64,000 nt of DNA from Mycobacterium sp. Z3061 (GTDB lineage Bacteria > Actinomycetota > Actinomycetes > Mycobacteriales > Mycobacteriaceae). The notes beneath the pieces were generated by a model. The model saw only the letters and a program-made list of their open reading frames with translations. It was not told the origin of the DNA and ran no database searches. A program made the translations under genes and the position numbers. Location of the stretch: positions 1,736,001-1,800,000 of the forward strand of contig NZ_CP134062.1 of NCBI RefSeq assembly GCF_031583025.1. Reading direction: 5' to 3'. This document shows positions 1,327 to 18,195 of the stretch, in pieces. Positions within the stretch are counted from its first letter, which is position 1. Each line of letters begins with the position of its first letter.

Positions 1327-3717
1327 CTAGGACGAGGTGCCCTGTTGGAAGATGCCGGCGAGGTTGTGGCCGATGTTCTCTACGCCCGACACAAAGTTGT
1401 ACGCAAGCCCGGCGCCCAGTTCGCCGACGTTGCCCATGCCTGATACGGCGTTGCCGAAGTTCATGAATCCCGAGGAAATCTGGCCTGTGACGTTGACGCC
1501 CGAGGTGCCAAAGTTCAAGAACGGGAACGGATTTGTGTTCTGGTAGCCCGAGACGAAATCGCCGCTGTTGGCAAAGCCGGAGCTGCCGCCGAGGCCTGTG
1601 TTGAAGAAGCCCGACGAGGGAGCGGCGGTGGTGTTGAAGAACCCGGGTGCTGCCGGAATGTTGATTTGCGCGATCGTGACGGGGTCCGTTGTGACGCTCG
1701 GGACGTCGATGGCCGGCGCGTCGAAGGGGAAGATGTTGACGCTCTGAATAACCACCGTCGGCGTGAGGGGGCCCGGGGGGATGGTGATTGTCGGCGTGTC
1801 GAATCCGCCCAGGTTGATGGGCGGGACGGTGAAACTATTCGTCGAAATCACCGGTGTGTTGTAGCCTCCGGGCGCCCCAATGGTGATGATCGGGGCGTTG
1901 AACGACGTCAAACCGATCGTTGGCAGGTTGAAGGCGGAGATGAAACCATTGGAGCCGAATTGAGTGATCTCGTTACCGCTGTTATTCATTGAAAAGTATT
2001 TTATTGGAACCCCCGGGTCACCTATCAGGATCGGCGGGATAAAAACGTTGGTGAGATTAATGTAGGTGCCGAGCCCGTCCAATTTCCCGAATGTCTGGGC
2101 CGGATCGCCACCGACTTGGAAGTTCGCCGCGAGCGGAAGATACATGGACGGTAGTTGTACGAAGGGGAGGTTGAACTTCCCGATAGATATCGTCGGTGCG
2201 GTGAAACCGCCCACTGCTATCGGCGGTGTCTGGAACTGCGGAATGTGCACGCTCGGAAGGTTTATTCCCGGAATCGTTATTGTCGGCGCCGAGAACCCAC
2301 CTATGTGAAATGAGGGAATGGAGAACTGTGAGTTGTTTATGATCGACGGTATGACCATCTTCGGCGCGAAGAATCCGCTCAGGTGCGCGGAAGGGATGTG
2401 GATCGGGGGCAGGGTGAGGGCGGGTACGCCGATCTGAACGTGCAGACTGCCCTGGAAATTGCCGGTATAGAACATGCCGTTGTTGAAGTTGCCCATGTTG
2501 AACATGCCGTTGTTGAAACTGCCGGTGTTCAATGCGCCGGTGTTGACGTTGCCGGAGTTGTAGGAACCGGTGTTGAAGCTGCCGATGTTGAAGTCGCCGG
2601 TGTTCACCCAGCCCGGGTTGAAAGAGCCGGTGTTGTAGCTACCCGCGTTGTAAGCACCCGTGTTGACGGCACCCGAGTTGAAGATGCCCGTGTTGAGGTT
2701 TCCGGCGTTGAAGAAGCCGGTGCTGGCTAAGCCCGAATTCCCGATGCCGGTGCTGAAGTCTCCCGAGTTGAAGAAGCCGAAGCTGCCCTTGCCCGAATTG
2801 AAGAATCCCACGCTTCCGTCGCCGGAATTGAACAGGCCAAAGCTGTTGACGCCCGTGTTCAGCTGGATGCCGACCTGGTTGTTGCCGGTCAGGCCGATGC
2901 CGATGTTGTGGTCGCCCTTGTTGGCGATACCGATATTGAAGTTGCCCAGGTTGGCGATGCCCTGGTTGTTGCTGCCCAGGTTTCCGAATAAGAAGTTGTG
3001 GCTGCCGACGTTCGCCGAGCCGACGTTTCCGTCGCCGATGTTTGCGGATCCGACGTTGGAATTACCGAAGTTCGCGTTGCCGATATTTCCAAAGCCGAAG
3101 TTTCCCATGCCCAGGTCGTTCATCCCGGCGTTCGCCAGGCCGAGGGCGAAGTCAAGTGACCTCGTGGACGCGGCGGGCAATGCGGCAGCGGATGCGGCCG
3201 CCGGCGATCCGGCGATCGGCAGCAACGCGGCAACAGCGCTCGATGCGTCGGCGTAGTAGCCGAGCATCGCGGCGATGTCCTGGGCCCACATCTCCGCATA
3301 ATCGGCCTCGACTGCCGCGATGGCCGGGAAGTTCAGACCGAACAGGTTTGTCCGCGCGAGCGATGACACCACCACACGGTTCAGTGCGATCAGGTCAGGG
3401 TGAACCGTCGCCGCCTGCACCTTCTCGAACGCCGCCACCATAGTGCGCGCAGCCGCGGCCGTCTGATCGGCTTGTGCGGAAACCGTTGTGAGCCAGCCGA
3501 CATAAGGCGCGGCGGCCTCCATCATCGCCTGCGATGCCGCGCCCTGATAGGACGCGCTGGTCAGCGTCGAGGTCACCCCGTCGAAAGACGTTGCCGCTGA
3601 ACCTAGTTCCGCGGCCAGATTGCCCCAAGCTTGCGCGGCGCCATACATCGGTTCGATCCCGGCACCGCCGAATATCTGGGCCGAGTTGATCTCCGGTGGC
3701 AACACTAGAAAGCTCAT
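1327..3717 (-). CDS. PPE-MPTR family protein
   Basis: This 796-residue protein starts MSFLVLPPEINSAQIFGGAG, the classical PPE N-terminus. An in-frame ATG 36 bp upstream exists, but the PPE signature and a purine-rich site (gaaggaag) favour 3717. The PPE domain covers roughly residues 1-175. It is followed by MPTR repeats (NxGxGN/FNSG type, about residues 210-430) and then a long region of alternating hydrophobic PxIxIP/GGF segments seen in many MPTR PPE proteins. PPE proteins are ESX-5 substrates located at the cell envelope. The gene lies 15 bp ahead of a PE_PGRS gene. No specific M. tuberculosis orthologue is claimed. DNA for about residues 460-590 is visibly richer in A and T than the rest. 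Confidence 0.93.
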   Translation of the reverse strand: MSFLVLPPEINSAQIFGGAGIEPMYGAAQAWGNLAAELGSAATSFDGVTSTLTSASYQGAASQAMMEAAAPYVGWLTTVSAQADQTAAAARTMVAAFEKVQAATVHPDLIALNRVVVSSLARTNLFGLNFPAIAAVEADYAEMWAQDIAAMLGYYADASSAVAALLPIAGSPAAASAAALPAASTRSLDFALGLANAGMNDLGMGNFGFGNIGNANFGNSNVGSANIGDGNVGSANVGSHNFLFGNLGSNNQGIANLGNFNIGIANKGDHNIGIGLTGNNQVGIQLNTGVNSFGLFNSGDGSVGFFNSGKGSFGFFNSGDFSTGIGNSGLASTGFFNAGNLNTGIFNSGAVNTGAYNAGSYNTGSFNPGWVNTGDFNIGSFNTGSYNSGNVNTGALNTGSFNNGMFNMGNFNNGMFYTGNFQGSLHVQIGVPALTLPPIHIPSAHLSGFFAPKMVIPSIINNSQFSIPSFHIGGFSAPTITIPGINLPSVHIPQFQTPPIAVGGFTAPTISIGKFNLPFVQLPSMYLPLAANFQVGGDPAQTFGKLDGLGTYINLTNVFIPPILIGDPGVPIKYFSMNNSGNEITQFGSNGFISAFNLPTIGLTSFNAPIITIGAPGGYNTPVISTNSFTVPPINLGGFDTPTITIPPGPLTPTVVIQSVNIFPFDAPAIDVPSVTTDPVTIAQINIPAAPGFFNTTAAPSSGFFNTGLGGSSGFANSGDFVSGYQNTNPFPFLNFGTSGVNVTGQISSGFMNFGNAVSGMGNVGELGAGLAYNFVSGVENIGHNLAGIFQQGTSS

Positions 3718-3784
3718 CGCCTCAAACCTTCCTTCTCCCAGCACTTTCGGCATTCAGGGTGGCGCGCGCAGCCGCCGCGGTAAA

Positions 3785-4555: not shown

Positions 4556-7500
4556 CTATCGGGCCAGGCGCAGAGTTGTGGCCCCGGCACGCGGGTGTTC
4601 GTGCCCGACTTGCTCTTCCAACAGGCCCAATTCCATTGCCAAGAGGGTTAATTGGGGGCGGCGTCGGCGCCCGGTCTTGTCGCGGATCCGATCCAGGTGC
4701 GATCGCACCGTGCGCAGCGATATGACCAAGGTCTGGGCGATCTGCTGATCTGTGTTGCCGTGGGCAAGCAACGCCAGAAGCTCCAACTCGCGCCGGCTGA
4801 GCTTGTGGGGCGCGCGGGCTTCTTTCGCCGACGCGGCCGCCGGCGTCAGCCTGGGGGCCTCGGCGAGCCGGTTGCGGTAACCCGCCGCAATCGCGCGGTA
4901 TCCCGTGGCCGAGGCGGCATCGGCGGCCTCTTGGTACAGCGCGACGGCATCCTCCAAGTCGCCGCGGTAGGCAGCGAGGTCGGCCGCCGCGCCTACGGCC
5001 AGCGGATGGCGGTCCGGACCAAGGGTGGCGTTGACACAGTGCTCGGCCTCGGCTGCGGACCCGGCTGCCAGCAAGGCGGGCACCACGGTGCTCACGACGA
5101 AGGGATCTTTGGCCAGCACGGGCACCTGTGCCAGCAGGGTTCTCGCCACATCGGCAGCCACCTGTGGGTCCCCACCCCGGGCGGTGGCCAGTTCCACCCG
5201 GGTAGGGCCGCACATGCGGTGCCACCAGCCGTCCCGCGGCCCGAGGTCGTCCAGCAGCGCCTCGGCCTCGGAGAGCCTGCCCTGCTGCAGCCGCACCCAG
5301 GCCAGGAGTTCGCGCCCGAGGAAGGACGACATTCCGGTGGGAACGGCTTCGGAGGCCTCGAGCACAGCCAGGGCGGCCGCCTCGGTTCGGTCGATGTCGC
5401 CCAGGAACCGGCCCGCCACTGCCTCGACCAGCGAAGCCAACACCTCGGGGGCCGGGCCGACGTTGAGCGCGCGGGCGCCGCTGCGGATCAGGCCGACTAC
5501 CGACGAAAGCTCGCCGGCCCGCATCGCCAATGCCTTCTGCAGAACGCTGATGATGACGCCGGCGCCGAATTCCTCGGGCAGCCTCAGCCGCACGGCCTCC
5601 GCGATTCCACGGTCGATCACCGCAATGCCCTCGTCGCGGCGGCCCAGCTCACACAGCGCTGCTCCGCGGTAGATCAACGCCGCGGCGCGGGCATGCTTGG
5701 CATCGGATTGCTCGGCCAGCGCCAGCGCGCGATCGGCGCAGGCCAGACCAGCCTCACCTTCGAGGTTCGAGTCGTGCCACATCGCCAGGCGCGCGTACAG
5801 CAAGGCCAGATCCGGCCCCGGCAAAGCGGTTTCGAGTATCAGACGCGCCCGCTCGAATGCATCGAGCGCGCCCTGCTGCTGGCCAAGAGCCAGCTGCACG
5901 GATCCGAGAACGATGAGAAGCTTTGCCGCCAAGCCGTTTCCGGCTCCTTCCAGCAGTTCCACGCCCTCTTCCAGTGGCGCGATCGCCGCCGCCGGATCCC
6001 CGCTGGCCAGCAGCATGCGACTCCGCTCGCACAGCAGATTGCCGCGCTCGACAGGATTGTCGACGTTGACCAACGCGTGGTCGTACAGTGCCGCCGCCTC
6101 GGCGAATGCCCCCGCCCGCGAGTTGATCTCAGCCGCCTGCGCGCACAGGGGCGCGGCGTCGGCCGCACGCCCGGCGGCCAGGAGATGACGGCTGCGCTCG
6201 ATCACCGGCGCCGGCGGAACCGCCGCCGCGAGCGCGTCGGCGGCCCGGCTGTGCAGCGTTGTGGCTTCCCAGACCGGCACCGCGTCACGCACGGCCTCAT
6301 GGGTGAGGGCGTGCCGAAACCGCACCCGGCCGCGGTGCGCCGGATCGGACTCCACCAACCGTGCGCGGGTCGCGGCGGTCAGCGCTGCCCACACCACCGA
6401 CGCCCGCAGCCCGGTCAGCTCCGACAGCAACCCGGGATCGAAGGTGTTTCCCAGCACCGCCGCGGCCATCACGACGCGCTGGTGTTCGGGCTCGAGGCGA
6501 CCAAGTCGCCGCAAGACGCCGAGCGCCAGCGTGTTGGGCAGATGAAACCCGGAAAGCTCCGAGCACTGCCACCCACCGTCGCGCCGGATGACATGGCCCG
6601 ATCTGATCGCCGCTTCCAGCAACTCCTCCACGGCGTACGGCACACCCTCACTGCGGTGCACCAGCATGTCGACCAACTCGCTGCTGACCCGCTCGGCATC
6701 GAGGCGGGCGCACACCAGGCGCTGGACATCGCCTCTGGCCAGCGGCGACAAATCCACCACGCCGGCCAGGCCGGCGCGCCGCCACCCGTCGAGCATCACC
6801 CGCACCGGGTGGGTCGCACCGCCTTCGTCGGAGCGGTCCGTCACCACCAACAGCAGCGGAAGCTTGCGGGTGCGCCGGGCAACGAAGTCGATCAGCGCAC
6901 GGGTCGATGCATCCGCCCAGTGCACGTCCTCGACCACCAACAGCGCACCCGACGGGGCCGCCACGGTGCGCAGCACCGTCACCACACCCTCAAAGAGCCG
7001 CAGCCGGATCGGGGCACCGAAAAGATCGTCCACCGGGGGCGCCCCGTCGGACAGTTCCGGGACGATCGCGCCCACCGCACCGGCCGCCGGCCCGAGCTGT
7101 TCTCGAAACGCCGCCACATCGGCGGTGGCCAGGTAGCTGTCGATCGCTTCGGAGAAGGGCAGAAACGGCAGCGCGAGCTCCAGCTCCCGACATCCACCCC
7201 ACAGCGCGGCGCAGCCGCGCTCCTCGGCCCGGCGGCTGAGCTCGCGGGCCAGGCGCGTCTTGCCCATGCCGGCATCGCCGGCCAGCACCCGCACCCGGCC
7301 CGTTCCCCGTCGGGCATCGTCGAGTGTTTCCTCCAGCGCCGCAAGGTCTGCGTCCCTCGCGATAAGCGGGATCACCGGAGCCGACCAGACATGCCGCTGC
7401 GGCTCAGCATCGCGATGGTGTTGTGCATGCCAGGTCCCTTCGTCGCACTTCTGTCCCGAATGCGCAGTGCGGGTTGGCCAAGCTTTGACGACAGAGCGGG

Positions 7501-10189: not shown

Positions 10190-11440
10190 ATGACCGCGTT
10201 GAGAACGGGCGAGGGGTTCCCAGACGTCGTCGTCACCGGGGTGGCGTCCACGACGTCACTCGCGCCGGATGCCGAGGAGACCTGGCAGCAACTGCTGCAG
10301 GGCAGTAGCGGAATTCGTAAATTGGACAAAGATTTCGTCACCGAATTCGACTCACCGATACGTATCGGCGGTCCGTTGCGCGAAGACCTGGACGAGCAAT
10401 TCGGTCGCGTCGAGCTGCGCCGGTTCGCATTCATGCAGAAACTGTCCGCGGTGGTGAGCCGGCGGCTGTGGGAGCAGGCCGGATCGCCCGAAGTCGATAC
10501 CAACCGGCTGATGGTGTCGGTCGGTCTGGGCCTGGGCAGCACCGAGGACATTCCGCTCTGGCACAACATCTGGAAGGTGAAAGGCCTCAAGGCGATCTCG
10601 CCGATCTCGGTGCAGAAGTACATGCCGAACGCGCCCGCCGCCGTGATCGGGCTCGACCGTGAGGCCAAGGCCGGCGTCGAGACGTCGGTGATGGCCGACG
10701 CGTCGGGTACCGCGGCCATCGCTCAGGCCTGGCAGAACATCGTCCTCGGAGAGGCCGACATGGCGATCTGCGGCGGCGTGGAGACGGTTATCGAGGCCGT
10801 GCCTATGGCGACGTTCTGGCAACTGGGCATGCTGTCCACCAACAACGACGACCCGACCGGAGCCTGCCGGCCGTTCGACAGGCACCGCGACGGCATGGTG
10901 TTGGCGGAAGGCGGCGCGATGCTGCTGGTCGAAACCGAGGAGCATGCCAAGGCACGGGGCGCGCCCGTCCTGGCCCGGCTGATGGGTGCCGCCATCACGT
11001 CGGACGGATGCGACGCCGTGATGCCGGACCCGCGCGGCGAGCGCGCCGGTGACGCGATTGCCCGGGCGATCCACCTGGCCGGACTGGCCCCGAGCGACAT
11101 CGACCTCGTCAAGGCGCACGCCGTCGGCACCACGTTCGGCGATTCAGCCGAGGCGCGCGCCATCCGCCGGGCACTGGGTGACCACTCACCGGCGGTGTAC
11201 GCGCCCAAGGCGGCGCTGGGCAATTCACTGGGTGCGGCCGGCGCGGTCGAGGCCGTGCTCACGGTCCAGGCTTTGCGGGACCAAATCGTGCCGCCCACTT
11301 TAAATTTCACGGAATCCGATCCCGAGATCGATCTCGACGTGGTGGCCGGTGAGGCACGTCGCGGGAATTACCGCTATGCCGTCGCGGAGTCGTTCGGCTT
11401 GGGCGGAAACAACGTCGCAGTGGTCTTCGGCGCGGCCTGA
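10190..11440 (+). CDS. KasA/KasB-like beta-ketoacyl-ACP synthase homologue lacking the active-site Cys
   Basis: The 416-residue length equals that of KasA. Downstream stretches such as VLGEADMAICGGVET, NNDDPTGACRPFDR and DPEIDLDVVAGE are KasB-like, so this is a thiolase-fold FAS-II elongating synthase homologue. The nucleophile Cys (KasA Cys171) is replaced by Asp170 (gac, 10697-10699, in MADASGT). The first catalytic His is kept (His310, KAHAVGT). The second (KasA His345) is Asn345 (aat, 11222-11224, in ALGNSLGA). Condensation is therefore not expected; a chain-length-factor-like partner or regulatory role is inferred. ATG 10190 has AAGGAA about 10 nt upstream. The gene ends 1 bp from convergent ctaD. 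Confidence 0.9.
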   Translation: MTALRTGEGFPDVVVTGVASTTSLAPDAEETWQQLLQGSSGIRKLDKDFVTEFDSPIRIGGPLREDLDEQFGRVELRRFAFMQKLSAVVSRRLWEQAGSPEVDTNRLMVSVGLGLGSTEDIPLWHNIWKVKGLKAISPISVQKYMPNAPAAVIGLDREAKAGVETSVMADASGTAAIAQAWQNIVLGEADMAICGGVETVIEAVPMATFWQLGMLSTNNDDPTGACRPFDRHRDGMVLAEGGAMLLVETEEHAKARGAPVLARLMGAAITSDGCDAVMPDPRGERAGDAIARAIHLAGLAPSDIDLVKAHAVGTTFGDSAEARAIRRALGDHSPAVYAPKAALGNSLGAAGAVEAVLTVQALRDQIVPPTLNFTESDPEIDLDVVAGEARRGNYRYAVAESFGLGGNNVAVVFGAA

Positions 11441-13314: not shown

Positions 13315-14664
13315 GTGTTCACCGGCGACCTGCGAAGCGTGCAATGGCGCTCTCAGGCGGCCCGCCTGTGGGGGCCGACCGCCGTCGTGCTCATCGCCGC
13401 CGTGGTGATCGGCCTGCAGATCACGGCCACCGGTGCGGGGTTCGTGGGTCCGCTGCGCAGCCTGGCCGGCGACTATTTCGGCACCCCGACATCGGCCACC
13501 GTGCCGTGGGTGGGCCTGGGTGTGGCCATGGTCGGGCTATCCCGCCGGTACCGGGTCTGGTCGCTGTCGGTGGCGGTGGCGCTCGATGTCGTTCTCGCGG
13601 TGCTGAGGGTGGCGCGCGGCGGTGCCTGGACGGTCGGCAACGGTCCGCTGATCGTGCTCACCGGCTTGGCGGTGATCGTCGGGTGGCGGCGCTGGGCCAG
13701 GGACGAACAGGGCACGGCCCTGCGGGGAGTCGCTTTCGGTCTGCTGCTCGTCATCGCCACCAAAGTCGGCGACAGTTGGTTGCGTATCACCGCGATCCTG
13801 CGGCCGGTTGTCCTGGACGAGTACGCACTGCTGGCCGATCACGCTCTCGCGCAACCGTCGTGGCTGCTGGGCCGGCTCCTGCACGCGGGCGGCCCTGTTC
13901 TCAATGCGGCGTTTCACTGGGTGTACATCGAATTGCCCGTCGCGGCAATGGTGGTCGCGATCTATCAATTGCGCAACGTCAGCATCGGCGGCTGGCCGCG
14001 GCACTTTCTGATCCCGACATTCCTGGTGCTCGGCCTGATCGGGCCGCTGATCTACGTGTTCTTCCCGTTGGTCGGCCCGGACTTCGCCTTTGGAAGCGAG
14101 GGCCGGGGATTCGAAATCGGCGACTTCTGGCCGCACGCCGTGCCGCGGATCAATCTGTCGCCCAGAGCAATTGCCTTCGACGGGTCGACTCCACGCAACT
14201 GCATGCCCTCGATGCACACGGCGTGGGCGCTGGCGGTGTTCCTGCACTCCCGTGGGGGACCACGCTGGCTGCGGATGGGCGGCGCGCTGTGGCTGGTCTG
14301 CACCGTCGCGGCGACCCTCGGCTTCGGGTACCACTACGGCGTCGATCTGCTGGCGGGCGGATTGCTCTGCCTGACGGTGGAATCGGCGCTACGGGAGCCG
14401 GTGCGCGACCGGGTCGGGTGGCGAATAGGAATGACGGCTTTTGGAGCCGCATTTCTGGTTGCGCTGCTGGTGTGTTGCCGGTACTTCGCGTCGGAGATGG
14501 CGCGCTACGCGGTGCCGTTCGGCGTGCTCATCATCGGCACGCTGGTGGCATTCAGCACCGCTTTCTACGTGACGTATTTCGCCCGGCCGGCCATGCCGGC
14601 CGAGGACCGAAGTCTGCCGGTACGGGGCGTCTTCGTACGTCAGGGTTCCTCGGCTGTGTCCTGA
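13315..14664 (+). CDS. PAP2-superfamily membrane protein (AUR1/inositol-phosphoceramide-synthase-like)
   Basis: The 449-residue protein has about ten hydrophobic helices. The PAP2 phosphatase motifs lie in its C-terminal half: [14 protein letters not shown] (SxxxH-type motif near residue 300) and [13 protein letters not shown] (HxxxxxD motif near residue 345). These carry the catalytic His/Asp of lipid phosphatases and phosphotransferases. Related actinobacterial proteins are thought to dephosphorylate or transfer lipid head groups on the outer membrane face, but the substrate is unknown. GTG at 13315 follows a leaderless-type promoter. It is divergent from ctaD and converges on an amine oxidase 14 bp after its stop. 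Confidence 0.85.
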
Positions 14665-14678
14665 TGAACACGCTACGG

Positions 14679-15965
14679 CTATAGGGCGGCGATCACTTCG
14701 GCGGCGGCCCGCCGGCCGGCTTCGATCGCCCCATCCAGATACCCGGGATGCCCAGTGGCGGTTTCCGATCCACCCCAATGGATGTCGCCGACCGGCCCGC
14801 ACGGCATCGGCACGAATCCCTCGGTGGTGCCGGGTTTCGGCAGCGCCACATAGCCGCCTTCGACGAATTCGTCGAGGTGCCAGGACTTCTCCTGCCAGTC
14901 GGCCGGCTCCAGCACTTCCCGGCCGATGTGCGGCACCAGCGGTCTCAGCACGGCCTCGCGGCGCGCCGCGGCGTCCAACGCGGACAGCTCGCGTGCGTCG
15001 GGACCGCCGACCAGCACACACAGATGGCCCGGCCCGCCTGGCGCGGTGGTGTCGAAGACCGCGCTGCCCGGTCTGTCCAGGACGATGAACTCTCCGCCGC
15101 CCCGCTCTCGCCAGAACGGCCGGTGATAGACCGCGACCGCCTTGTACACCGACCCCATATATGTATTGCGCTGCAAAGCAACGAGATTCGGGGGTAGCGC
15201 GGGCTCGAACGCGATCCGGGAAGCCACCGGCGGCGGCGGCGTGACGATCGCCTTGTCGGCCTGCACGTCGCCCGACGCCGTGCGCACCAGCACCCGATCG
15301 CCACACACGATCGAGGTCACCCGATGTCCGGTACACACCCGCGGGCCCAACTCTGCCGCCAACCGCTCGACCAGCGCCCCGGCGCTCTCAACCAGCAACG
15401 ATTCCTGGGCGCCGCCTTTGGTGCCCAGAATCGTCAACAGGCCTCCCTGGTAGCGGATCATGTCCGTGGCGGCGCGCACCGACAGCCGGTCGAGGTCCCC
15501 GGTCCACGAGATCAGGGCCACCACCTCGAGCAGTCGCCGAGCGGTGCGACCCGGCACCCTGCTCAGCCAGCGGTCGAGGGTCGACGCGTTGAGTCTGGCC
15601 GGTGCTCCGACCCGCGCCAGCACGCCGATCCCGGCCAAAGCCAGTGCCGAGACGAGCATCGAGGGCCCCAGTGGTGAGACCCGCCGCTCCCCGTCGATCA
15701 CGGTGGGCAGGGTCCCGGTGTGCATCGGGAACATTGTCACCCCGAGTTCGGCGGCCAGCTCCGGGACCAGGTGGTGGTCGTGGCCGATCCACTGCCCGCC
15801 CAGGTCGAAACGCGATCCCAGCGCACTGGTCCGGCCCAGCACGCGTCCGCCCACCCGATCGGCCGCTTCGAGGACGATCACGTCGATGCCCCGCCGATGC
15901 AGCTCACGCGCCGCGGTCAGTCCGGACAGTCCGGCGCCCACCACCGCCACCGTCGAGTCCCGCAT
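14679..15965 (-). CDS. Flavin-containing amine oxidase family protein
   Basis: The 428-residue protein begins MRDSTVAVVGAGLSGLTAAR, the GxGxxG dinucleotide-binding fold for FAD. EAADRVGGRV follows, and a C-terminal FAD motif (GDIHWGGSETA...GYLDGAIEAGRRAA) is typical of monoamine-oxidase-type enzymes. These oxidise amines to imines/aldehydes with release of H2O2. The substrate cannot be told from sequence. ATG 15965 has GGAGG at good spacing. The TetR gene lies upstream on the same strand, and a palindrome similar to that upstream of tetR lies between them, so TetR probably regulates this gene. Confidence 0.92.
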   Translation of the reverse strand: MRDSTVAVVGAGLSGLTAARELHRRGIDVIVLEAADRVGGRVLGRTSALGSRFDLGGQWIGHDHHLVPELAAELGVTMFPMHTGTLPTVIDGERRVSPLGPSMLVSALALAGIGVLARVGAPARLNASTLDRWLSRVPGRTARRLLEVVALISWTGDLDRLSVRAATDMIRYQGGLLTILGTKGGAQESLLVESAGALVERLAAELGPRVCTGHRVTSIVCGDRVLVRTASGDVQADKAIVTPPPPVASRIAFEPALPPNLVALQRNTYMGSVYKAVAVYHRPFWRERGGGEFIVLDRPGSAVFDTTAPGGPGHLCVLVGGPDARELSALDAAARREAVLRPLVPHIGREVLEPADWQEKSWHLDEFVEGGYVALPKPGTTEGFVPMPCGPVGDIHWGGSETATGHPGYLDGAIEAGRRAAAEVIAAL

Positions 15966-15985
15966 CGGGTACCTCCAAGTTCCGC

Positions 15986-16013
15986 ACTAAGTCGGTCAAC
16001 CGACTGATTTAGT
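15986..16013. promoter_or_regulatory. Candidate TetR operator between tetR and the amine oxidase gene
   Basis: AGTCGGT (15990-15996) and ACCGACT (15999-16005) are perfect 7-bp arms around CA. They are framed by ACTAA (15986-15990) and TTAGT (16009-16013). The core GTCGGnCAACCG is shared with the palindrome upstream of the TetR gene at 16697-16712, which suggests the same repressor binds both. Confidence 0.6.
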
Positions 16014-16047
16014 AAGCCACAGGGAGGTCATGCGGCGCAACACCGGG

Positions 16048-16665
16048 TCACCGTGCCCCTTTGACCGGCTGCGGGTCGGCGAACATCACCAGCATGTCGA
16101 CGGCGCGTTCGAGATCATGCCGGGCGCGGGCGGCGTCGGTGCTGGCCACGTACTGCACGATCAGGCCGTCCAGCACTGCCAGCGTCAACCGGCCGAGCGT
16201 CGGGAAATCCACGGCGCACCGCTCGCCGGCCGTCCGTGCAGCTTGCTCGAACAGCGTGCTGACCAGCTCGGTATACCGGTGGTACTGCAACTGGGCCAGA
16301 CCGCCCGCGCCTTCGGTGCGCACCGAATACATGGCCAGCTCATATTGCATGACCTGCAGTCCGATCTCACGCTCGACCAGCTTGCTCCAGAACATGGTCA
16401 TGCTCTCCCGCAGCGCGTGCGCGACCCCGCGGTCAGGCTGCAGGCCGGGCCGCACGGCCGACACCACGTCGTCGATGACCGCCGTGATGACCGCGCGCAA
16501 CAGCAGGTCCTTCGTCGGAAACACATAGTGCAACGTGCCGAGCGGGATGCCGGCCTCGGCTGCCACCGCGCGCAGAGTCGTGCCCGGAACCCCGACGTCG
16601 CTCAATACCCGGACCGCGGCGGCCACGATCTCTTCCTGGCGACGTTCCACCCGCACGTATGCCAT
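16048..16665 (-). CDS. TetR family transcriptional repressor
   Basis: The 205-residue protein has an N-terminal helix-turn-helix (EEIVAAAVRVLSDVGVPGTT, then AAEAGIPLGTLHYVFPTKDLL) and an all-helical ligand domain, the classical TetR layout. ATG at 16665 is chosen because AAGGAG lies 7 nt upstream and the HTH begins immediately. It probably controls itself, the amine oxidase gene downstream (83 bp gap holding a palindrome) and the divergent WS/DGAT run, because a second matching palindrome lies between 16665 and 16771. The inducer is unknown; lipid or amine ligands are possible from the neighbours. Confidence 0.93.
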   Translation of the reverse strand: MAYVRVERRQEEIVAAAVRVLSDVGVPGTTLRAVAAEAGIPLGTLHYVFPTKDLLLRAVITAVIDDVVSAVRPGLQPDRGVAHALRESMTMFWSKLVEREIGLQVMQYELAMYSVRTEGAGGLAQLQYHRYTELVSTLFEQAARTAGERCAVDFPTLGRLTLAVLDGLIVQYVASTDAARARHDLERAVDMLVMFADPQPVKGAR

Positions 16666-16696
16666 GCACGGCTCCTTTCGTGATCGGGGTTGATAG

Positions 16697-16712
16697 TCGG
16701 ACAACCGTCCGA
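16697..16712. promoter_or_regulatory. Candidate TetR operator in the tetR / WS-DGAT divergent region
   Basis: TCGGAC (16697-16702) and GTCCGA (16707-16712) form a perfect palindrome around AACC, 32 bp before the tetR start and 58 bp before the WS/DGAT start. It shares GTCGGnCAACCG with the site at 15990-16005. Confidence 0.6.
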
Positions 16713-16770
16713 AGTGTACGGCCGGGATCGGGGTCTGGCATCCAACTCCGTGACGGGGTGGAATAGGCGT

Positions 16771-18195
16771 GTGAAGCGACTCACTGGTGTGGACGCCCTG
16801 ATGCTGTACACCGAGACACCCGAGATTCACATGCACACGCTGAAGATCGGCATCCTCGACGTGTCAAACATGGAGCGGGACTACGACTTTGAGATCTTCC
16901 GCGAGGTGGGTTACCAACGGCTGATGGCGCTCGAGCCGCTGCGGTACCAGTTGCTGGACATCCCGCTGAAGTTGCACCACCCCATGTGGCTGGTCAACGA
17001 AGACATCGACCTCGACTATCACGTACGCCGCGCGCGGGTGCCGGCGCCGGGCGGGCGACGAGAGCTCGACGAGTTGATCGGCCACATCGCGAGCACACCG
17101 TTGCGCCGCGATCACCCGTTGTGGGAGATGTACGTCGCCGAGGGGCTGGCCGACAACCGGATTGCCATCATTCACAAGGTCCACCACGTACTGGCCGACG
17201 GCAAGGCTTCGGCGAACCAGATGGCTCAGGCGCTGTCGCCGCACCAGCCCGAACCCCGGCGGTTGCCACGCGAACTGCCGACCCGCTCGCACCTGCTCAA
17301 GGAGGCCGCCAAAGATCACGCGGGCCTGATCCGCAAGCTGCCGCGCCTGCTCGGCGAGACGGCCTCGGGGGTCTCCCGGGTGCGCCGCCGATCGAAGGAG
17401 CGGGGTCCCACCCCCGACCTCGCCCGCAACTTCGCCCCGCCGCCGTGCTTCATCAACCACCGGGTCAGTCCCGGTCGCCGGTTCGCCACCGCGCCGTTGG
17501 CGTTGGCCGACGTCAAGGAGACCAGCAAGCATCTCGGCGTCACGCTCAACGACGTCGTGCTGGCCACCGTGGCCGGGGCACTGCGCCGACTGCTGTTGCG
17601 CTACGACGGCCAGGCCGATGTCCCGCTGATCGCCGGGGTGCCGGTGAGTTACAACCCGGCACCAGACCGCATGGCGGGCAACGAATTCACCTACATGACG
17701 CCGTCACTGCCGGTGCATGTCGAAGACCCGATGCAACGAGTTCGGCTGACGGCCATGGCAACCAGGATCGCGAAGGAGAATCACCAGCTGCTCGGCCCCA
17801 CCGTGCTGCCCGCCTGGATGTCCTATCTCCCGACAGGGTTGGCGCCGCGCATGTTTCGGGCCCAGGCCCGACGCATGGAGTCCGCCAGCGTGATGAACCT
17901 GGTGGTGTCGAACGTGCCCGGGCCGCGCGAACGCGGCTGCATCGAGGGAGCGACGCTCACCGAGATCTATTCGGTGGGGCCGATCGTGGCGGGCAGCGGC
18001 ATGAACATCACCGTGTGGAGTTACGTCGACCAATTCGCCATCTCGGTGCTGACCGACGATCGCACCCTGGACGATCCGCACGAGGCTACCGATGCGCTGA
18101 TCGACGCGTTCCGTGAATTGCGGAGCGCTGCCGGGCTTTCCGAGGATCTCACGCCGCTCGAGGCCAGCCTGCCCCTGGCCGCGGCGCTGGGTTGA
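16771..18195 (+). CDS. Wax ester synthase / diacylglycerol acyltransferase (WS/DGAT)
   Basis: The 474-residue protein has the WS/DGAT architecture. The acyl-transfer motif HHVLADG (HHxxxDG) lies near residues 138-144. The C-terminal half carries the mycobacterial conserved blocks NDVVLATVAGALR, MNLVVSNVPGP and GSGMNITVWSY. These enzymes esterify acyl-CoA to diacylglycerol or long-chain alcohols to make triacylglycerol and wax storage lipid at the inner membrane. GTG 16771 gives the usual family N-terminus (KRLTGVDALMLYTETPE). It opens a four-gene run with DUF1345, SnoaL-like and MFS genes and is divergent from the TetR gene. Confidence 0.94.
   Translation: MKRLTGVDALMLYTETPEIHMHTLKIGILDVSNMERDYDFEIFREVGYQRLMALEPLRYQLLDIPLKLHHPMWLVNEDIDLDYHVRRARVPAPGGRRELDELIGHIASTPLRRDHPLWEMYVAEGLADNRIAIIHKVHHVLADGKASANQMAQALSPHQPEPRRLPRELPTRSHLLKEAAKDHAGLIRKLPRLLGETASGVSRVRRRSKERGPTPDLARNFAPPPCFINHRVSPGRRFATAPLALADVKETSKHLGVTLNDVVLATVAGALRRLLLRYDGQADVPLIAGVPVSYNPAPDRMAGNEFTYMTPSLPVHVEDPMQRVRLTAMATRIAKENHQLLGPTVLPAWMSYLPTGLAPRMFRAQARRMESASVMNLVVSNVPGPRERGCIEGATLTEIYSVGPIVAGSGMNITVWSYVDQFAISVLTDDRTLDDPHEATDALIDAFRELRSAAGLSEDLTPLEASLPLAAALG

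Follow-up and report, generated by a model that had tools for sequence, protein, structure and literature searches.

The 64,000-nucleotide stretch of the Mycobacterium sp. Z3061 chromosome analyzed here (the window) carries a plus-strand gene, uninterrupted from ATG to stop, whose 416-amino-acid product has the ketoacyl synthase (KAS) fold and is a paralog of KasB with aspartate in place of the nucleophilic cysteine (Asp-type, or Asp-Kas; coordinates in Table 1). This pseudo-condensing KasB paralog is a protein type newly described here, and the association of its relatives with a tandem of methyltransferase genes is likewise a new finding; no earlier description of an Asp-type Kas, or of any third Kas beside KasA and KasB, was found in the literature searched, which consisted mainly of open-licence papers. 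By sequence the protein belongs to the KasA/KasB family, passing the NCBIfam model NF005916 with 686 bits (cut-off, 560), and both KAS domains (PF00109 and PF02801) extend over its full length. The first-pass annotation had described it as a KasA-length ketosynthase homolog; the length stands, and the protein is nearer KasB than KasA, scoring 602 bits against the KasB structure (PDB 2gp6) versus 475 against KasA and sharing 63% identity with the KasB and 57% with the KasA of its own genome. An origin from KasA was therefore rejected on bit scores and identity, and also on the tree, which puts the Asp-type clade on the KasB side. The kasA-kasB pair of this genome lies at 4.12 Mb and the window gene at 1.75 Mb, a separation of 2.4 Mb. 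Its neighbors are an esterase gene (PF00756) and COX1/ctaD, as had been proposed, and no methyltransferase gene was found in the 64-kb window; the accompanying remark that the gene lies away from any type II fatty acid synthase (FAS-II) cluster holds for the window but is unusual for the family, whose members are mostly near mycolate methyltransferases.

Translation confirmed the intact frame and the active-site residues that had been read from it, namely, Asp170, His310, the Pro-Lys pair at 339-340, and Asn345. With Asp170 for the Cys nucleophile and Asn345 for the second catalytic His, the protein lacks two catalytic residues of an active condensing KAS (KASI/II). KAS enzymes without the Cys do not take up an acyl chain by the standard mechanism, and a non-condensing role would be the natural reading of such a sequence. 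Residue counts were made on 101 unique Asp-type sequences, which were chosen for the Asp and are thus informative on the other residues and not on the Asp itself; KasA numbering was taken from an alignment of the window protein with the KasA and KasB structures. The first-pass annotation had proposed looking for orthologs with the same Asp/Asn pair; the pair was rejected as a defining trait because 87 of the 101 sequences retain His345. On the tree, the change to Asn345 occurred once at the root of the gordonae lineage, and the His was lost independently (to Asn or Thr) in a few other places.

Much of the remaining protein is conserved. Of 182 sites with an identity of at least 95% both among KasA rows and among KasB rows, 117 persist in 90% or more of 45 Asp-type representatives and 20 in fewer than half of them, and new states are themselves conserved among the 101 sequences (Asp276 in 99, Gln361 in 97, Met237 in 96, and Gly at 214 in 89). 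Asp273, Gly318, and Asn408, which we take by motif to be the counterparts of FabF Asp265, Gly310, and Asn404, are each kept in all 101, and Thr315 is kept in 100. Those three FabF residues are tied to an open acyl gate in the available part of a gating study (PMC7138838). Six basic KasA residues are named as docking AcpM in the accessible portion of a KasA study (PMC9519891), and four of them are kept: Arg74 (101 of 101), Arg78 (95), Arg79 (96), and Arg135 (94). The pattern looks less like random decay than like a remodeled active site, in a protein to which acyl-AcpM may still be delivered.

Table 1. Coding frame and diagnostic residues of the Asp-type KasB paralog (window positions; fractions of 101 refer to unique Asp-type sequences)
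Feature	Position	Strand	State and occurrence
Asp-type KasB paralog (third Kas), KAS fold, 416 amino acids	10190..11440	+	Uninterrupted ATG-to-stop frame
Asp170 at nucleophile position (KasA Cys171)	10697..10699	+	Asp in 97/97 profile matches; Ala in nested relative L306
Gly213 replacing Arg214 (AcpM docking in KasA, available part of PMC9519891)	10826..10828	+	Arg 0/101, Gly 89/101
Met236 replacing Phe237	10895..10897	+	Met 96/101; Phe in KasA and in KasB (at least 95% of rows in each)
Asp275 replacing His276 (FabF His268 by motif, gating loop 2)	11012..11014	+	Asp 99/101, His 1/101
His310, catalytic His retained (KasA His311)	11117..11119	+	101/101; Ser in L315, Asp in L306
Lys340, retained	11207..11209	+	98/101
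Asn345 replacing second catalytic His	11222..11224	+	13 Asn, 1 Thr, 87 His among 101
Leu404 replacing gate residue Phe404	11399..11401	+	Leu 56, Phe 28, Met 13, Ile 4 of 101

A profile built from 48 Asp-type proteins (A1) and searched against 396 genomes of the genus at a threshold of E <= 1e-224 gave 97 matches in 96 genomes, the window protein among them, all with Asp at the nucleophile position; profile and threshold favor Asp-type sequences, and degenerate members fall below the cut-off. Members of the Asp clade or type outside these matches are G045 (a partial match, Asp), L302 (406 amino acids, Asp), L315, and L306 (L and G numbers are our handles for loci and genomes). Two Asp-type copies each were seen in genomes G014 (L116 and L123) and G270 (L066 and L102). 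Trees were built from chosen representatives (129, 116, and 100 rows) with the active-site columns removed. In one of these, 45 Asp-type representatives group as a single clade that falls on the side of KasB and is separate from KasA, with ultrafast bootstrap/SH-aLRT support of 100/99, a value also obtained in a later tree. A 58-row clade (99/93) joined the Asp clade to the Cys-type third copies of Mycolicibacter, M. fragae, and G148 and to the Asp-type copy of M. shimoidei; in the later tree, with more rows, the Asp clade grouped with M. fragae, G148, M. shimoidei, and G030 at 100/89. Because support for the tie to Mycolicibacter falls there from 99/93 to 89/47, this wider grouping of third Kas proteins is not firm. 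The M. shimoidei copy (L168, Asp; cut by a contig end) lies outside the main Asp clade, and a second origin of the Asp is possible there; a constraint to one clade is not rejected (approximately unbiased test, p-AU 0.40). L168 and L120, the Cys-type copy of G148, which has Tyr at position 345, are neighboring third-Kas branches in a methyltransferase cluster.

In a sample of 251 genomes of the family, the best match outside the genus reached 613.9 bits versus at least 754.5 for the Asp-type members listed, and all 41 non-mycobacterial loci examined (Nocardia and Microbacteriaceae) have Cys. The possibility that the Asp is confined to this one copy as a sporadic mutation, which had been raised at the outset, was rejected because the replacement of Cys by Asp is old, is shared across the clade, and is under purifying selection. 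In 21 genome pairs of the gordonae group the median ratio of nonsynonymous to synonymous substitution rates (dN/dS) is 0.109 for Asp-Kas, 0.025 for KasB, and 0.033 for KasA, and in 171 pairs of other species it is 0.235, 0.100, and 0.102, respectively. The dN/dS is low, yet Asp-Kas shows a higher dN than KasB in all 378 genome pairs (pairs that share genomes); the gene is therefore maintained by selection, more loosely than KasA or KasB. With its frame intact and a dN/dS of 0.109 in its own group, the window gene is not a pseudogene, in keeping with the original impression that it is selected, not decayed.

In 78 of 97 Asp-type loci the Asp-Kas faces a tandem of two mycolic-acid methyltransferase genes (mt1 and mt2) on the opposite strand, across a gap of 5 to 63 bp in 65 loci, 101 to 1300 bp in 4, and 2.2 to 6.0 kb in 9. 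In one representative (L062), mt1 is nearest PcaA/UmaA and mt2 nearest CmaA1 among solved structures. Among the 19 loci without the tandem, two (L087 and L127) have mt2 at about 9 to 10 kb, beyond the stretch examined; no methyltransferase was found in the stretch examined at each of 10 kasA-kasB operon loci. One neighborhood survey, of 76 loci, used a custom gene caller and missed L106 and L127, which later surveys covered. His345 is kept in 77 of the 78 loci with the pair versus 8 of the 19 without it (Fisher p 8e-9); once relatedness is taken into account, this contrast comes down to 3 to 5 independent pairs, from which nothing can be demonstrated. Across the 396 genomes, 80 have both Asp-Kas and mt2, 16 Asp-Kas only, 58 mt2 only, and 242 neither, after removal of five genomes with only paralog-level mt2 matches; the genomes are related, and a p value is not meaningful as such. 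G049, tallied as Asp-Kas only, carries a 67% mt2 at its locus.

At 20 of the mt2-only loci the slot that Asp-Kas would occupy, or its flank, was inspected. Three hold members of the Asp clade (L302, L306, and L315), one holds fragments (L312), and seven hold a Cys-type Kas (L298, L299, L301, L304, L307, L310, and L316). L306 (genome G090; Ala170 and Asp310) and L315 (G196; Asp170 and Ser310) have uninterrupted frames that face mt1-mt2 and are nested inside the Asp clade on the tree. At L312, Kas remnants lie in separate pieces at about 5343-6117 beside an mt1-mt2 tandem, where the occupant of the slot has apparently decayed. Cys-type third copies elsewhere keep similar company: those of Mycolicibacter and its neighbor have at least one methyltransferase in 10 of 10 loci (L153-L155 and L157-L163, Mycolicibacter and relatives), the mycolate methyltransferases lying on the same strand with the nearest about 30 to 90 bp away, and the Cys-type copies of M. 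fragae and G148, together with the Asp-type copy of M. shimoidei, also lie among mycolate methyltransferases.

The reading that we favor, to which we give about an even chance, is that Asp-Kas is a condensation-dead, KasB-derived partner that would place AcpM-bound meromycolate for methyltransferases; we infer this role because of the retained residues, the methyltransferase neighbors, and published interactions of KasB with such enzymes. In the available part of a compilation of yeast two-hybrid and coimmunoprecipitation results, KasB scores positive with all eight mycolate methyltransferases of M. tuberculosis and KasA positive or plus/minus, and condensing enzymes with dehydratases are proposed to target mycolate methyltransferases (PMC3245277). 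Deletion of kasB abolishes trans-cyclopropanation, according to the accessible portion of a study whose authors also weigh shortened chains as poor substrates (PMC4014462). On the favored reading, a KasB duplicate would have lost the condensation Cys and retained the KAS fold, together with some of the surface that docks AcpM and some of the acyl gate. Its product may still bind acyl-AcpM (or malonyl-AcpM), as the kept docking residues suggest, and may form a dimer with KasB (or a homodimer); within a FAS-II complex, but without condensing, it would then position the AcpM-bound meromycolyl chain for particular methyltransferases, an involvement in mycolate methylation being suggested by the neighbors in relatives. 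In the M. gordonae lineage, where the tandem is absent, Asp-Kas would presumably serve another methyltransferase or a KasB dimer.

Several observations weigh against this reading. The window's own lineage, that of M. gordonae, is without the mt1-mt2 tandem, and no close mt2 ortholog was found in the window's own genome (best match, 63%). Where the tandem is present, Asp-Kas faces it instead of sharing its operon; in 58 genomes mt2 is present but no Asp-Kas reaches the full score, and 9 of the 20 mt2-only loci have no Kas in the stretch examined. A Cys-type Kas with an intact triad occupies the same slot in seven loci (L255, L298, L301, L304, L307, L310, and L316), and loss of the nucleophile is therefore not required beside these methyltransferases. 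These seven form a clade (100/100) that branches below KasB plus third Kas; a topology in which L255 alone is forced to join the third-Kas rows is not rejected (p-AU 0.23), and the seven may be replacements or a retained ancestor. In addition, three other Cys-type third copies, which fall inside the KasB group (L249, L250, and L252), have no methyltransferase in the stretch examined. Within the protein, two of the six docking residues are gone, Arg214 and Lys136 (each 0 of 101; Ala at 136 in 100, and also in the KasB of the window's genome), the gate Phe404 is kept in only 28 of 101, and His311, present in all 101, hints that the protein may retain some chemistry.

The retained His and Lys residues are what would be needed if Asp-Kas were instead a malonyl-AcpM decarboxylase of the KSQ kind, in which the two His and the Lys turn malonyl-AcpM into acetyl-AcpM with no acyl transfer; we consider this unlikely. 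In KasA, the decarboxylation of malonyl-AcpM is ascribed to His311 and His345, and a C171Q variant mimics the acylated state (available part of PMC9519891). His311, His345, and Lys340 are kept in 101, 87, and 98 of the 101 Asp-type sequences, respectively. However, Asp stands where Gln would be expected, and its added negative charge beside malonate seems unfavorable; His345 is gone in several branches, including that of the window, almost every sequence has other residues at Phe237 and His276, the loss of His311 in L306 and L315 argues against decarboxylation as a general role, and the methyltransferase neighbors are left unexplained. Slightly less likely in our estimation is a chain-length-factor-like subunit, obligately heterodimeric with KasB (or KasA), that would set meromycolate length independently of the methyltransferases: a KAS fold without the nucleophile would suit such a partner, but the gene is not encoded with its synthase (2.4 Mb away), the residue is Asp and not Gln, and the commonest conserved neighbors are methyltransferases and not a ketosynthase. 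Quite doubtful, too, is a reading in which Asp171, His311, and His345/Lys340 would make up a new active site: with meromycolyl-AcpM bound, the protein would catalyze an acid-base reaction other than condensation (e.g., double-bond placement or release), readying the substrate of the facing methyltransferases. A slowly decaying or nearly functionless duplicate is very improbable, for despite the elevated dN, the gene fragments at L312, and the repeated loss of further catalytic residues, dN/dS is well below 1, all 100 unique Asp-type sequences retrieved are 411 to 416 amino acids long (as trimmed), and the new residues Asp276, Gln361, and Met237 are almost completely conserved.

Elsewhere in the window, the product of 1330-3753 (minus strand) has an N terminus that resembles a PPE-family protein, recognized by eye, and near the Asp-Kas gene a lipid-related stretch (13315-18192) encodes, consecutively, a PAP2-like protein, a flavin amine oxidase, a TetR regulator, and a wax-ester synthase/DGAT.

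To our knowledge, it is not settled what directs mycolate methyltransferases to the correct site on the growing AcpM-bound chain. A naturally condensation-dead Kas tied genetically to two methyltransferases would, if the favored reading is true, separate docking from condensation, making the docking idea testable. The gene is also an annotation trap, in that NF005916 passes the window protein and Asp-type relatives occur in 96 of 396 genomes of the genus.

Among known systems, KasB (2gp6) shares with the window protein its fold, its length, 63% identity (to the KasB of the same genome), the docking residues Arg74, Arg78, and Arg79, and His311 and Lys340. Asp-Kas differs from it in Cys171 to Asp, Arg214 to Gly, Phe237 to Met, and His276 to Asp, in Asn345 in the window's lineage, and in its separate locus, which is near methyltransferases in most relatives examined, though not in the window. 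Chain-length factors (KS-beta) of type II polyketide synthases, such as that of the actinorhodin KS-CLF (1tqy), likewise have the KAS fold without the nucleophile Cys; they carry Gln at that position and are encoded beside KS-alpha, whereas Asp-Kas has Asp, has no adjacent ketosynthase (kasA and kasB are not adjacent), and keeps His311 and Lys340. KSQ loading domains are malonyl decarboxylases with Gln at the nucleophile and the His/His/Lys set kept, and they resemble Asp-Kas in fold, in the replaced nucleophile, and in His and Lys residues that are mostly retained; Asp-Kas has Asp for the Gln, is stand-alone, and has lost the second His in several lineages, the window's among them. We use the label pseudo-condensing KasB paralog because at the nucleophile residue the protein departs from active KAS enzymes, chain-length factors, and KSQ domains alike. 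The Cys-type third Kas of Mycolicibacter and M. fragae is near the Asp clade in the tree and similarly placed among mycolate methyltransferases, but it has a complete Cys-His-His triad, and in Mycolicibacter the methyltransferases are on the same strand.
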